Source of the DNA: an uncultured Lachnospiraceae bacterium
GTDB taxonomy: Bacteria; Bacillota; Clostridia; Lachnospirales; Lachnospiraceae
DNA length: 64,000 bases
Direction of reading: 5' to 3'
Assembly: GCA_902760755.1 (NCBI GenBank)
Contig: CACWHK010000010.1
Span: 26,247-90,246 of the forward strand
Shown piece by piece: positions 16,528 to 23,676 of the stretch. The notes beneath the pieces were generated by a model. It did no database searches. It worked only from the letters and a program-made list of their open reading frames with translations, and was not told where the DNA came from. A program made the position numbers and the translations under genes. Within the stretch, counting starts at the first letter, position 1. Each line of letters opens with the position of its first letter.

Positions 16528-16902
16528 ATGGAACCAAAAAGCAGTGACAGAGAGAAGCATGTGAGCGGAGCATCGAAGCCCATGGGACGTCGCGGCGAGG
16601 CCGTGAATACCAATGGTCCGGTGGGCCGCGCAGACGGTTACGCAGGACGTACGGGCAGCTCTTCAAAAAGAGATGACAGCAGTGGCGGCGGTGCAGGTCG
16701 CGGAAAGACCTCCATCATAGCCGTGATCATTGCCCTTCTTCTCGGCGGAGGCGGCGGTCTTACGGCGCTGCTTACCGGAGGCGGAGGATCGGACACCGGC
16801 ACGGGTACGGGTACCAGCAACTCGGGTACCGTGACACCGGGTGGCAGCTCCGGCGGTGCTGGGCGGAGGTGGTCTCGGCGGAAGCGGTTCCGCAGCGGCT
16901 GA
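16528..16902 (+). pseudogene. N-terminal part of the clostripain-type peptidase, separated by a frameshift
   Basis: This 124-residue frame has a good ribosome site (AGAGGGATAG) and encodes a basic cytoplasmic start, a membrane anchor (SIIAVIIALLLGGGGGLTALL near residues 61-82) and a Gly/Thr/Ser linker. It then runs into an Arg-rich out-of-frame tail ending at 16902. The Gly-rich linker continues smoothly in the +1 frame as the start of the peptidase at 16841. Dropping a single G in the GGG at 16861-16863 would join the two frames into one protein of about 790 residues. This is a sequencing error, a real mutation or, less likely, programmed frameshifting. Confidence 0.75.
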
Positions 16903-18928
16903 GTGGTTCAACGGAGTAAGCAATACCGGGAAGCTGAATACCGAGGTAAGTCCGGCGGCAGCTCCGAAGCGTACATCCATTAAGGGGAACGGTCAGGATA
17001 CCGTAACCATCATGGTTTATATGTGCGGAACGGATCTGGAATCCCGCGGCGGTATGGCTACAAATGATATGCGTGAGATGGCAGCGGCAACACTGTCATC
17101 CAACATCAATATCCTGATCTACACCGGTGGCTGCAAGGGCTGGAAGACCAGTGGCATCAGCAACAGCACCAACCAGATCTACAAGATCCAGGACGGTCAG
17201 CTGGCGCAGCTTGTTCCGGATGCGGGTGACAAGCCCATGACGGATCCGGCAACTCTTACGGAATTCATCAAGTTCTGTGCACAGTATTATCCGGCAAACC
17301 GTTATGATCTGATCTTCTGGGATCACGGCGGAGGATCCATCAGCGGCTACGGCTATGATGAGCGCTACAAGAGCTCCGGTTCCATGGATCTGACCGGCAT
17401 GAATACCGCACTGAAGAACGGCGGTGTGACCTTCGACTTCATCGGCTATGATGCATGCCTTATGGCAACCCTTGAAACTGCGATCATGACCAGCAACTAT
17501 GCGGACTATCTGATCGCATCGGAGGAGACGGAGCCCGGTATCGGCTGGTACTACACGGACTGGCTGAATGCGCTTTCCAAGAACACCTCCATGCCGACGA
17601 TCGAGATCGGTAAGAACATCGTCGACGGCTTCGTGGACGAGTGTAACCGGAAATGTGCCGGCCAGCAGACCACGCTTTCCGTGATCGACCTTGCAGAGTT
17701 CTCTGCAACGGTACCGGATAAGCTGGCAGCCTTCTCCACAAGTACAAGCACCATGATCCAGGGCGACGATTTCAAGAAGGTATCGGATGCCCGGGCAGGT
17801 ACCAGAGAGTTTTCCTCCTCCGGTATCGATCAGGTGGACCTGGTACATTTTGCTGAGAAGGTGGGAACCACCGAGGCCAAGGCGCTGTCCAAGGCTCTGA
17901 CCGACAGTGTGAAGTACAACCGGACCTCTTCGAATATGTCGAATGCGTACGGTGTGTCCATTTACTTCCCGTATCGGAAGACCTCCAGCGTCAACACGGC
18001 AGTTAAGAACTATAACAATATCGGCGTCCGGTCCGAGTACTCCAACTGTATCAAGGCATTTGCAAGTATGGGTACCGCAGGACAGATCGCAGGCGGCGGA
18101 AGCGGCAGTCTGATCGGCTCCCTTCTTGGCGGCGGAAGCAGCAGTGGCGGCTCCGGCAGCTCCAGCGGAATCGCATCCCTGCTCGGCTCCTTCCTCGGCG
18201 GAGGAAAGAGCATCCCGGGTGTGGATCCCTCTGCAGCAGAGTACATGCAGGATATGGACGTGGAAGCAGCTGCCGAGTATATCGCAAATCATCAGTTTGA
18301 TGCTTCGGCTCTGGAGTGGAAGACCGAGTCCGACGGAACCCATACCATCAGCGTTTCCGAGGATCAGTGGAAGCTGATCGAGAATCTTCAGATGAACATC
18401 TTCTGGGATGACGGAACCGGTTATGTGGATCTGGGTCTGGATAATCTGTATGAGTTTACGGATGACGGAAAGCTGGTGGGAGATTATGACGGCACCTGGT
18501 TTGCCATCGACGGACTGGCAGTACCGTACTACTTTGTTTCCGAAGCGAAGGATTCCTCGGGACAGACCATCACAACCGGTCGTGTTCCGGTGCTCCTGGA
18601 TGGTATAAGGGCAAATCTGATCATCGTATTTGACAAGAATTATCCGGACGGTTATATCGCAGGTGCACGGTATGATTACGTGGACGGCGAGACGGATACG
18701 GTAGCCAAGGGCGTGACGGAGATTGCGGAAGGAACCAAGATCGACTTCCTCTGCGACTACTACAGCTACAGCGGAACCTATCAGAACAGCTATATGTGGG
18801 GTGAGCAGATCACCTACTCGAAGGGGCTGAAGTGCAGCTACGTAACGATCGAAGGCGGTGCGAAGGTAACCTATCTGCTGACGGATCTTTACGGACGTGA
18901 ATTCTGGACTCCTGCAGTTCCTCAGTAA
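16841..18928 (+). CDS. Clostripain-family cysteine peptidase (C11), main part; 5' end in another frame
   Basis: The 695-residue frame starts at a GTG inside a Gly-rich linker with no convincing ribosome site, so the true N-terminus is in the frame at 16528. The C11 catalytic dyad is present: His in LIFWDHGGGSISGYGYDE near residue 165 and Cys in DFIGYDACLMATLE near residue 207. The IMVYMCGTDLESRGG segment before them is a family hallmark. A Gly/Ser-rich linker (about residues 415-465) leads to a C-terminal beta-rich domain. Such enzymes cleave after Arg or Lys and act outside the cell or at its surface; the predicted anchor lies upstream of the frameshift. Confidence 0.85.
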   Translation: MAAPAVLGGGGLGGSGSAAAEWFNGVSNTGKLNTEVSPAAAPKRTSIKGNGQDTVTIMVYMCGTDLESRGGMATNDMREMAAATLSSNINILIYTGGCKGWKTSGISNSTNQIYKIQDGQLAQLVPDAGDKPMTDPATLTEFIKFCAQYYPANRYDLIFWDHGGGSISGYGYDERYKSSGSMDLTGMNTALKNGGVTFDFIGYDACLMATLETAIMTSNYADYLIASEETEPGIGWYYTDWLNALSKNTSMPTIEIGKNIVDGFVDECNRKCAGQQTTLSVIDLAEFSATVPDKLAAFSTSTSTMIQGDDFKKVSDARAGTREFSSSGIDQVDLVHFAEKVGTTEAKALSKALTDSVKYNRTSSNMSNAYGVSIYFPYRKTSSVNTAVKNYNNIGVRSEYSNCIKAFASMGTAGQIAGGGSGSLIGSLLGGGSSSGGSGSSSGIASLLGSFLGGGKSIPGVDPSAAEYMQDMDVEAAAEYIANHQFDASALEWKTESDGTHTISVSEDQWKLIENLQMNIFWDDGTGYVDLGLDNLYEFTDDGKLVGDYDGTWFAIDGLAVPYYFVSEAKDSSGQTITTGRVPVLLDGIRANLIIVFDKNYPDGYIAGARYDYVDGETDTVAKGVTEIAEGTKIDFLCDYYSYSGTYQNSYMWGEQITYSKGLKCSYVTIEGGAKVTYLLTDLYGREFWTPAVPQ

Positions 18929-18944: not shown

Positions 18945-19143
18945 GAAGTGCGGTTCAGCTTCGGGGACCGTATTCCCCACCTCGACACCGTTCGCACTCC
19001 ATTTCACGATGTAGCGGTTTCACACCGATAACAGAGGGACCCTATAGTACGGCATTTTCGTGGCGTACTGCAGGGTCCCTCTGTTTATCGTCGCTCAATG
19101 GTCGCGGTGGGAAACAAGTCCCCGCGCTAATGAACCGCACTTC
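18945..19143. repeat. Long imperfect palindrome of about 200 bases
   Basis: The outer arms GAAGTGCGGTTCA (18945-18957) and its complement (19131-19143) are identical. Inside, GGGGAC, TCCC-ACC and CGAC blocks pair in the same order. The core ACAGAGGGACCCT (19031-19043) pairs perfectly with 19072-19084, with a further AGTACG/CGTACT stem (19046-19051, 19064-19069). The left arm has about 30 unpaired bases. It lies between the convergent clostripain and carB genes. It could be a small non-autonomous mobile element or a structured RNA. Confidence 0.75.
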
Positions 19144-19156
19144 CCATACACTGGTG

Positions 19157-19189
19157 AAAAAAGGGATGACTCACAAGAGTCATCCCTTT
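19157..19189 (-). terminator. Bidirectional-looking rho-independent terminator of carB
   Basis: AAAGGGATGACTC (19160-19172) pairs with 19177-19189 around the loop ACAA. On the minus strand six T residues follow, so it ends carB transcription. The intended carB stop at 19195 lies just before it. Confidence 0.88.
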
Positions 19190-19211
19190 CATAGTTACTC
19201 AGCTTCCTTGA

Positions 19212-22200
19212 TCAGCTCATGCCACTCCTGAAGGGAATGGATGTTGCCCATGTGACGGCGGAGCATATGGTCGATACCCTCAGCCGCTGCCTTACCTCAT
19301 CATGAATGCTTGCCTTTCCGACAGGAGAGTTGATGATAAGATCGATCTCTCCGTTGGTGATGAGGTCGAGAATGTTCGGACGACCCTCATACAGCTTCTT
19401 CACCTTCTCGGCCGGGATACCTGCTGCATTGATGGCATCGCAGGTCTTGCCGGTTGCCAGGATCTTAAAGCCGTTATCGTACAGGATCTTAGCCACGCCC
19501 GGTGCCTCGTCGCGCTCCTGGCTGTTGACGGAGATCAGTACCGTTCCCTTAAGCGGGAGTGTAGCCTTGGCTGCTTCTTCGGACTTGAAGTAAGCACCGC
19601 CGGCGGAGAGGGATATGCCCAGAACCTCACCGGTGGACCGCATTTCCGGTCCGAGGATCGGGTCAACCTCCGGGAACATGTTGAACGGGAAGACAGCTTC
19701 CTTTACACCGTAGTACGGGATCTTGCGTTCCTTCATGGTCGGGATCGGTGACGGCTTGCCTGTCAGTTCGCCGGTAATGATCTCGGTTGCGATGGGCACC
19801 ATGCGGATACCGCAAACCTTGGATACAAGCGGTACGGTACGGGATGCTCTCGGATTAGCCTCAAGAACGAATACCTTTCCGTCCTCGATGGCATACTGCA
19901 TATTCATCAGGCCGACCACGTGCATCTGCTCCGCGATCTTTCTGGTGTATTCCTTAATGGTCTGCAGATTCTCTTCGGAAATGTGCTTCGACGGCAGGAT
20001 GCATGCGGAGTCACCGGAATGGATACCGGCCAGCTCGATGTGCTCCATAACTGCAGGTACGTAAGCATGGGTTCCGTCTGCAATGGCGTCTGCCTCGCAT
20101 TCCAGTGCGTGGTGCAGGAACCGGTCGATCAGGATCGGACGATCCGGTGTTACACCGACAGCTGCCTGCATGTAGCCGATCATGCTTTCATCATCATATA
20201 CGACCTCCATGCCGCGTCCGCCCAGAACGTAGGAAGGACGAACCATAACCGGATAGCCGATTCGGTTTGCAACCTCAATGGCCTCATCCACGGTGGTTGC
20301 CATGCCTGCCTCCGGCATGGGGATACCGAGCTTGTCCATGATGGCACGGAACTGATCACGGTCCTCAGCCAGATCAATGACTGCCGGAGAGGTACCGAGG
20401 ATCTTTACACCATTTCTCTCCAGATCTGCTGCCAGGTTCAGAGGTGTCTGACCACCGAACTGAGCGATCACGCCCACCGGCTTCTCCTTCTTGTAGATGG
20501 AGAGTACGTCCTCCAGAGTCAGAGGCTCGAAATAAAGCTTATCGGAGGTATCGTAGTCGGTGGATACGGTCTCCGGATTGCAGTTAACGATGATGGTCTC
20601 GAATCCCAGCTTCTTCAGGGACTGTGCAGCATGTACGCAGCAGTAGTCGAACTCGATACCCTGACCGATACGGTTCGGACCGCCGCCCAGGATCATGACC
20701 TTCTGACGGTCCTCGTTGATCGGGTTGTTGTCCGGTGCACAGTAGGTGGAGTAGAAGTAGGAGCTATCCTCGGTTCCGCTTACATGTACGGCATCCCATG
20801 CTTCCACAACGCCGATGGCCTCGCGCTTCTCGCGGATGGCATCCTCGGATACGCCGAGGATCTCGGAGAGATACTTGTCGGAGAAACCGTCCTTCTTAGC
20901 CTGTGTCAGTGCCTCATCGGAAGGAACCTGTCCCTTAAATGCAGCAACCAGTGCCTCTTCCTCGTCTACCAGCTCCTTCATCTGCTCGATGAAGTACTTC
21001 TTTACATGTGTGATCTCATGGATCTCATCTACGGTAGCGCCCTTGCGGATCGCTTCGTACATGATGAAATGACGCTCACTGGAGGGAGTGATCAGCTGAC
21101 GGAGCAGCTCCTTCTTGGAAAGGTCATAGAAGTTCTTTACATGACCCAGACCGTAGCGTCCCTTCTCAAGAGAGCGGACAGCCTTCTGGAAGGCTTCCTT
21201 ATAATTCTTACCGATGGACATAACCTCGCCCACGGCACGCATCTGGGTTCCCAGCTTATCATCCACGCCCTTGAACTTTTCGAATGCCCAGCGTGCGAAC
21301 TTAACAACCACATAGTCTCCGTCCGGATGATACTTATCCAGGGTTCCGTACTTTCCGCAGGGGATGTCTGCCAGGGTAAGTCCTGAAGCCAGCTTGGCGG
21401 ATACGAGAGCGATGGGGAAGCCCGTCGCCTTACTTGCAAGCGCGGAAGAACGGGAGGTACGCGGATTGATCTCGATTACGATGATGCGGTCGGTCTTCGG
21501 ATCATGTGCGAACTGAACGTTCGTACCGCCGATTACCTGAATGGATTCAACAATCTTATATGCCTGCTCCTGCAGACGCTTCTGAACGTCCTCGGAAATG
21601 GTGAGCATGGGAGCGGTACAGAAGGAATCACCGGTATGGATACCCATGGGATCCACATTTTCGATAAAGCATACGGTGATCATGTTGTTGTCCTTATCGC
21701 GGACAACCTCAAGCTCCAGCTCCTCCCATCCGGTTACGGATTCCTCGACAAGAACCTGTCCGACCAGAGAAGCTTTAAGACCACGTGCGCAGACGGTCTG
21801 CAGCTCATCGCGGTTGTAAACCAGTCCACCGCCGGCACCACCCATGGTGTAAGCAGGACGAAGAACCACCGGATAACCGAGCTCGTCGGCAATCTTCAGC
21901 GCTTCCTCTACGGAGTAGGCAACCTCGGAACGAGCAACCTCGATGCCCAGTGCCTTCATGGTGTTCTTGAACTCGATACGGTCCTCGCCACGTTCGATGG
22001 CATCCACCTGAACACCGATTACCTGTACGTTGTATTTCTCCAGAACACCGGCTTCAGCCAACTCGGAGCAAAGATTAAGTCCTGACTGACCACCCAGATT
22101 CGGAAGAAGTGCGTCGGGACGTTCCTTGGCAATGATCGCCTCCAGCCGCTTTACATTTAACGGCTCAATATATGTAACATCAGCCATCTCCGGATCCGTC

Positions 22201-22364
22201 ATGATGGTAGCCGGATTGGAATTCACCAGTACGATCTCATAGCCCAGGCTGCGAAGAGCCTTACATGCCTGCGTACCGGAATAATCGAACTCACACGCCT
22301 GTCCGATGACGATCGGACCGGAACCGATGATGAGTACCTTGTGGATATCTGTTCTTTGCGCCAT
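19212..22364 (-). CDS. carB: Carbamoyl-phosphate synthase large subunit, with a damaged C-terminus
   Basis: CarB uses glutamine-derived ammonia, bicarbonate and two ATP to make carbamoyl phosphate for pyrimidines and arginine. The frame is intact through both ATP-grasp halves (VLIIGSGPIVIGQACEFDYSG near residue 10; MILGGGPNRIGQGIEFDYCC near 550) and into the C-terminal MGS-like allosteric domain. After LIINSPVGKASIHDE the frame becomes unrelated and stops at 19212. The expected ending GKAAAEGI...HSLQEWHELIKEAE is still present in the next frame, with its stop at 19195-19197. About 22 residues that should lie between (SYLRKAAI...TT region) are absent. The ATG at 22364 follows GGAGGAACACACT; a TTG at 22379 is inside that site. 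Confidence 0.9.
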   Translation of the reverse strand: MAQRTDIHKVLIIGSGPIVIGQACEFDYSGTQACKALRSLGYEIVLVNSNPATIMTDPEMADVTYIEPLNVKRLEAIIAKERPDALLPNLGGQSGLNLCSELAEAGVLEKYNVQVIGVQVDAIERGEDRIEFKNTMKALGIEVARSEVAYSVEEALKIADELGYPVVLRPAYTMGGAGGGLVYNRDELQTVCARGLKASLVGQVLVEESVTGWEELELEVVRDKDNNMITVCFIENVDPMGIHTGDSFCTAPMLTISEDVQKRLQEQAYKIVESIQVIGGTNVQFAHDPKTDRIIVIEINPRTSRSSALASKATGFPIALVSAKLASGLTLADIPCGKYGTLDKYHPDGDYVVVKFARWAFEKFKGVDDKLGTQMRAVGEVMSIGKNYKEAFQKAVRSLEKGRYGLGHVKNFYDLSKKELLRQLITPSSERHFIMYEAIRKGATVDEIHEITHVKKYFIEQMKELVDEEEALVAAFKGQVPSDEALTQAKKDGFSDKYLSEILGVSEDAIREKREAIGVVEAWDAVHVSGTEDSSYFYSTYCAPDNNPINEDRQKVMILGGGPNRIGQGIEFDYCCVHAAQSLKKLGFETIIVNCNPETVSTDYDTSDKLYFEPLTLEDVLSIYKKEKPVGVIAQFGGQTPLNLAADLERNGVKILGTSPAVIDLAEDRDQFRAIMDKLGIPMPEAGMATTVDEAIEVANRIGYPVMVRPSYVLGGRGMEVVYDDESMIGYMQAAVGVTPDRPILIDRFLHHALECEADAIADGTHAYVPAVMEHIELAGIHSGDSACILPSKHISEENLQTIKEYTRKIAEQMHVVGLMNMQYAIEDGKVFVLEANPRASRTVPLVSKVCGIRMVPIATEIITGELTGKPSPIPTMKERKIPYYGVKEAVFPFNMFPEVDPILGPEMRSTGEVLGISLSAGGAYFKSEEAAKATLPLKGTVLISVNSQERDEAPGVAKILYDNGFKILATGKTCDAINAAGIPAEKVKKLYEGRPNILDLITNGEIDLIINSPVGKASIHDEVRQRLRVSTICSAVTWATSIPFRSGMS

Positions 22365-22503: not shown

Positions 22504-22527
22504 ACGAGGTGTGGTTTTTAAGGGGAT

Positions 22528-23676
22528 ATGTTTTGGATCATGGCAGGAAACGAGCAAAGGAAAAGCAAAACAACGGAGCAGCATAGGGGAAGGGAAGGAA
22601 CCGTCCCGGAATGGAACGGGGAAATCCTTGCCTGGTATCCGCAGCATAAAAGAGACCTTCCCTGGCGAAGAGACAGGGATCCTTATCATGTTTGGATCTC
22701 GGAGATCATGCTCCAGCAGACCCGCGTGGCTGCCGTGATCGGATACTATGAGCGATTTATGAGGGAACTCCCGGATATTGAAGCCCTGGCATCCGTAGAG
22801 GATGATCGGCTGATGAAGCTCTGGGAGGGCCTTGGTTATTATAACCGTGCAAGAAATCTGAAGAAGGCAGCGCTTATGATCCTGGAGCGGTTCCGCGGGC
22901 AGTTCCCTTCGGAGCCGGAGGAGATCCGGTCCCTTCCCGGGATCGGAGATTATACGGCAGGTGCTATCGCCTCCATATGCTTCGGAAAAGCGACACCGGC
23001 GGTGGACGGAAATGTCCTCCGTGTTTATACCCGTCTTACGGCGGATCCCTCCTGTATCGATCTGGATGCAACAAAGAAGAAGGTCCGGCAGGATATGACC
23101 CGGCTTTATGAAGAGGCAGAGCCTGAGGATAGAAGCCTTCTGACGCAGGGGTGGATGGAGCTGGGAGCAACGGTCTGTGTCCCCAACGGAGCACCCCTTT
23201 GCACGGAGTGCCCCCTGGCAGGATCCTGCAGGGCACATCAGACAGGGAAAACGGGCGATTTTCCGGTCCGTGCAGAGAAGAAAAAAAGACGGATCGAGGA
23301 GCGGACGGTATTCGTCCTGCTCTGTGACGGAAGAGTTGCCATGCATAAGCGGCCGAAGAAGGGCCTGCTTGCAGGACTCTGGGAGTTTCCGGGCGTTGAG
23401 GGAAGACTCTCCGTCGGGGAGGCTCTGGAACGGGCAGAGGCCTGGGGCTTTGCGCCCTCCTCACCGTGGATGGAGCTCCCGTATACACACATTTTCAGCC
23501 ATGTGGAATGGCATATGCATGCATTTTTCATTCACTGCGAATGCATGATAGACGAATCTAAGGAAATCGGAGGAATCACATGGTTCCTGAGAAAAGAACT
23601 GGAAGAGTCGGCGGCAGTCCCGTCGGCGTTCCGGCCGTTCCGGAACCTGCTGAAAAGCGGAGAGGGACTTTCTTAA
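22528..23676 (+). CDS. mutY: A/G-specific adenine DNA glycosylase MutY
   Basis: MutY removes adenine mispaired with 8-oxoguanine. The 382-residue protein has the catalytic-domain opening LPWRRDRDPYHVWISEIMLQQTRV region (cited as LPWRRDRDPY and SEIMLQQTRV), the helix-hairpin-helix with catalytic Asp in LPGIGDYTAGAIASI and PAVDGNV, and the four-Cys iron-sulfur loop (CVPNGAPLCTECPLAGSC). The C-terminal Nudix-like 8-oxoG recognition domain follows (RPKKGLLAGLWEFPG). The ATG at 22528 is close to AGGGGA; an ATG at 22540 is possible. Its last 97 bases overlap the start of the next gene in another frame. Confidence 0.95.
   Translation: MFWIMAGNEQRKSKTTEQHRGREGTVPEWNGEILAWYPQHKRDLPWRRDRDPYHVWISEIMLQQTRVAAVIGYYERFMRELPDIEALASVEDDRLMKLWEGLGYYNRARNLKKAALMILERFRGQFPSEPEEIRSLPGIGDYTAGAIASICFGKATPAVDGNVLRVYTRLTADPSCIDLDATKKKVRQDMTRLYEEAEPEDRSLLTQGWMELGATVCVPNGAPLCTECPLAGSCRAHQTGKTGDFPVRAEKKKRRIEERTVFVLLCDGRVAMHKRPKKGLLAGLWEFPGVEGRLSVGEALERAEAWGFAPSSPWMELPYTHIFSHVEWHMHAFFIHCECMIDESKEIGGITWFLRKELEESAAVPSAFRPFRNLLKSGEGLS

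Follow-up and report, generated by a model that had tools for sequence, protein, structure and literature searches.

The carB gene in the window (the whole 64,000-nucleotide stretch of DNA that was analysed) lacks 61 bases near its 3′ end, and this loss is probably an error of the genome assembly rather than a mutation of the organism; we put the probability of this at about three in four. The true gene would encode an ordinary, intact CPSase large subunit. Assembly error was judged likelier than an enzyme with lost control because similar breaks hit other conserved genes genome-wide. Before a frame loss in a draft genome is given a metabolic meaning, it should be compared with breaks elsewhere in the same assembly.

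Loss of 61 bases from carB

As written, carB occupies 19212..22364 on the minus strand. It starts with an ATG at 22364, preceded by a GGAGG-like site, and its CPSase large-subunit frame is intact to 19297, where the in-frame reading ends ...INSPVGKASIHDE; the following 85 bases are read in a shifted frame up to the stop, which ends at 19212, and encode a tail of 28 unrelated residues. The usual CarB ending and its stop lie in the next frame of the same strand (19195..19296) and match the C terminus of a relative; the 33 residues encoded by 19296-19198 are 97% identical to those of locus L005, and the stop follows at 19197-19195. A hairpin followed by a T run at 19160..19189, also on the minus strand, is the likely carB terminator. 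The first-pass annotation had described the off-frame end with its stop at 19212 and the intact normal ending one frame over with its stop at 19195, and the reading frames agree with it on both. It was also right that bases were lost and that their number is not a multiple of three, but the loss amounts to 61 bases (20.3 codons) between 19296 and 19297 on the minus strand, not about 22 codons. In the DNA-level comparison, carB shows one single clean 61-base gap against each of four genomes.

Alignment with CarB of relatives had been proposed as a check on the first-pass annotation, and relatives whose CarB ends in the same way were to count against it. The block is held by 15 of 15 aligned relatives. 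A wider set of 122 CarB loci gave a C-terminal match in 111; three of these were the window's own copies, leaving 108, some of them repeat fetches of one place. The block is carried by 107 of the 108, and the remaining locus (L015) is cut by a contig end. The CarB C terminus is matched in one stretch in 102 of the 108. L104, L067, L106, and L083 have a one-stretch C-terminal match in which the sole stop near the end is the natural one; in L082 the match extends over most of the block before it is lost. None of the 107 other loci extending to the block was found to have a CarB ending like the window's. Among the best 80 of the matches listed, the closest named records by CarB were for the most part metagenome assemblies of Lachnospiraceae, with many from animal gut.

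The product as written was matched by the Pfam families CPSase_L_D1, D2, and D3 and by MGS. PF02786 and PF25596 were each found twice, together with PF02787, giving the two synthetase halves and the oligomerisation domain of a CarB, and the product matches residues 1-1026 of E. coli CarB. The C-terminal MGS-like domain is incomplete: the PF02142 match breaks off at position 80 of the 94 in the profile.

Slippage between short direct repeats had been suggested as the origin of the loss, with AAGGCA-like sequences noted on either side of the junction. Copies of AAGGCA do flank the junction on both sides. However, slippage should leave one copy, and we rejected it because both are still present; the two ends of the junction have one base in common. 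A longer repeat pair in the relatives (the RKAA and GKAA codons) would predict an in-frame loss of 45 bases that keeps the SYIR codons, yet these codons are gone from the window's carB. The flanking repeats were therefore noted correctly, and we give virtually no credence to AAGGCA slippage as the event that deleted the block.

Further broken genes in the same assembly

Next to carB, on the plus strand, the gene for a C11 peptidase (clostripain family) is also split. Its first piece (16528..16856) is in the frame of the usual N-terminus and its second (16857..18928, PF03415) is in another frame, with about 50 bases absent at the join relative to genome G017. The break sits in a glycine- and serine-rich stretch, and the gene has a second, in-frame gap. 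The divergent upstream neighbour of carB, a MutY-like gene at 22528..23676 on the plus strand (HhH-GPD and NUDIX_4 domains), has an intact reading frame. Just beyond carB lies a palindromic element of about 200 bases (18945-19143). Its terminal inverted repeats are 13 bases long, and the arms of its inner hairpin 25 bases; four partial copies occur elsewhere in the genome, and pieces of it in G017.

Because the C11 peptidase gene was split as well, breaks were surveyed genome-wide in 0.83 Mb (830,300 bases) of the window's genome, a 78-contig draft that is 88% complete. The comparison genomes were G002 (1.27 Mb), G017 (0.43 Mb), and, over less sequence, G011 and G020. Unfiltered frameshift surveys picked up many antisense reading frames; a sense-filtered protein survey and a DNA-level survey took their place. 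The sense-filtered protein survey found breaks at 5 of 191 places here, compared to 0 of 192 in G002, 1 of 129 in G017, 0 of 46 in G011, and 0 of 18 in G020; it overlooked two of the genes described below, those for GAPDH and citrate synthase. The break of one base at L179, within a transposase gene resembling IS605 OrfB (relative L210), was left out of the count.

The DNA-level survey, for which intact relatives served as queries, covered 173 gene places here, 169 in G002, 122 in G017, 41 in G011, and 15 in G020. A clean break was defined as a non-triplet gap of at least 10 bases inside a gene. After inspection, clean breaks were present at 4 of the 173 places here and at none of the 347 in the four comparison genomes (Fisher p = 0.012 with carB and 0.036 without it, values that are only a guide, as clean gaps were chosen post hoc, with carB as the index case, and a second, in-frame gap is present in the C11 gene). 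The four are carB (61 bases missing), the C11 peptidase gene (about 50 missing), the citrate synthase gene (109 missing), and the GAPDH gene (17 repeated). The citrate synthase gene (L182:9846-11113) lacks its 109 bases relative to G002, and Pfam profile positions 3-128 and 161-357 are matched in different frames. The GAPDH gene (L151:11022-12076) is interrupted by an exact tandem duplication of 17 bases. It is the only gene found in the genome for this central enzyme of sugar breakdown, and a second may lie in the missing part; a broken sole GAPDH would be implausible for a gut fermenter, the lifestyle suggested by the relatives.

Before inspection, and with the mirror image of the carB gap left out, there were 11 gap places here, 5 in G002, 4 in G017, 1 in G011, and 1 in G020, not each of which was inspected. 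The gaps at L148 fall just after a stretch resembling a tRNA gene, and those at L170 and L152 (here) and at L220 of G002 are clustered, either upstream of the family domain or where it begins. G002 L195 has many gaps. At L266 of G017, the insertion is upstream of a reading frame that we take to resemble ATP synthase gamma. The closely inspected candidates in the comparison genomes fall upstream of genes. Places with many-gap clusters or with gaps of less than 10 bases were set aside without a closer look, both here (L154, L173, and window positions 22506 and 59629) and in the relatives (L129, L132, and L235 of G002; L139, twice, and L250 of G017); L135 of G011 and L147 of G020 were set aside on the same grounds.

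Exact tandem duplications numbered 26 here, 50 in G002, 4 in G017, 3 in G011, and 1 in G020, so that their bulk density is not higher here than in G002 (31 versus 39 per Mb). Eight of the 26 here were inspected and 3 of the 58 in the other genomes. Three of the eight split conserved genes as identified by Pfam, namely those for GAPDH (17 bases), a low-molecular-weight phosphatase (58 bases, L165:10135), and a GH130 enzyme (31 bases, L172:10348). A 35-base duplication at L169:860 repeats one end of a tRNA-Lys gene. The two inspected in G002 gave no clear gene split; the third, L257 of G017, may or may not split one.

Clean breaks in conserved genes in excess over the relatives, together with the two further genes split by duplications, are marks of an artefact, and we infer that assembly is the cause of the carB loss. 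Contig joins of the wrong size would be the mechanism, either dropping a stretch (carB, C11 peptidase, and citrate synthase) or repeating one exactly (GAPDH, phosphatase, and GH130); we propose them because they would be expected to drop some stretches and repeat others exactly. Such joins would break frames regardless of the importance of the gene. The excess of clean breaks, the split of the only GAPDH gene found, the split citrate synthase gene, the otherwise well-kept carB, and the one-base overlap at its junction all argue for assembly error. Against it, the joins, if real, mostly left no N, as there is only one run of N in the 830,300 bases (15 bases, at position 1410 of L169); bulk tandem duplications are no denser than in G002; and dN is slightly raised before the carB junction, as described below. 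Spurious frameshifts from assembly are documented (PMC11017572).

Second CarB and selection on carB

The genome has another CarB, 44% identical to the window's, encoded immediately downstream of the sole carA found, and this carA-carB pair is intact. The window's carB is unlinked, with no carA beside 19212-22364. One carA was found in 21 of 22 same-genus genomes searched, as in the window's genome, including the single-contig G002 and G005; the carA match in G018 is partial. Among the loci compared, carA is near the window-type carB only in the distant relatives L111 and L112. The genus has two CarB types and one CarA (window 19212-22364; L115:4084-8368), with carA accompanying the other carB and the window-type carB standing alone between the MutY-like gene and the C11 peptidase gene. 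Among the records listed by a literature search, none was relevant to two carB genes with one carA. A growth requirement for arginine or pyrimidines was considered as a consequence of losing the window's carB and is unlikely because of the intact pair elsewhere in the genome.

Purifying selection on the rest of carB is strong: across the 1022 codons that precede the junction, dN/dS was 0.023-0.042 between the window's carB and five relatives, compared to 0.022-0.042 among the five relatives themselves. For the final 110 of these codons, dN was 0.031-0.047 for window-relative pairs versus 0.014-0.026 among relatives; this could be a weak hint of relaxed constraint.

A real and recent deletion of the 61 bases would make carB a young pseudogene, tolerated thanks to the intact carA-carB pair. 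The second CarB directly after the only carA found is consistent with this, as is the slight rise of dN in the part of MGS that precedes the junction. So is the lack of a long repeat at the ends of the loss, since illegitimate deletions often have none. A very recent loss would leave no sign of decay. However, the unlinked carB has been kept across the genus under strong selection, the window's copy shows no other break, and the breaks in the GAPDH and citrate synthase genes demand a common cause. We therefore consider a young pseudogene unlikely.

Lost block and allosteric control

Aligned through an intact relative, the lost block corresponds to residues about 1027-1046 of E. coli CarB, including Tyr1040 and Thr1042, and so lies within the MGS-like allosteric domain, where the first-pass annotation had placed it. 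Thr1042 of E. coli CarB contacts ornithine, and Thr1042Ile strongly reduces activation of the enzyme by ornithine (PMC6245113). The counterparts of E. coli Ser948, Thr974, Thr977, and Lys993 are upstream of the junction and are the same in the intact relative; the counterpart of Lys954 is Arg in the intact relative. The nucleotide-binding residues checked fall outside the lost block.

Given a real deletion, the earlier idea that ornithine control is affected would be reasonable as judged from the alignment. On the reading proposed in the first-pass annotation, the shortened CarB would still be functional, with its catalytic halves intact and its ornithine-binding allosteric end lost. Both ATP-grasp halves are indeed intact, and the block spans the counterpart of the ornithine-binding Thr1042. 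The protein would nevertheless carry 28 unrelated residues in place of the last part of the MGS domain, an architecture seen in 0 of the 107 other loci reaching the block, and every point in favour of assembly error counts against it. A working enzyme of this kind is very unlikely, and it is likewise highly improbable that a natural CarB without its ornithine-binding end would operate unregulated beside the second CarB, with one CarA common to both. A real deletion would amount to a natural experiment on the role of the end of the CarB allosteric domain.

Comparison with known systems

With E. coli CarB (PDB 1bxr), the product of the window's carB shares both synthetase halves, the oligomerisation domain, and most of the MGS-like domain, matched full length; unlike it, the product has no counterpart of residues about 1027-1046 and ends in the unrelated tail. 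Mutants of E. coli carB whose allosteric control is altered, such as Thr1042Ile (PMC6245113), are affected in the same C-terminal domain, but theirs are defined changes with measured activity. The spurious pseudogenes that arise from assembly (PMC11017572) resemble the present case in that frames are broken in well-kept genes and in excess over relatives. They differ in having been counted per assembly at known coverage, whereas the breaks here are of 17-109 bases.
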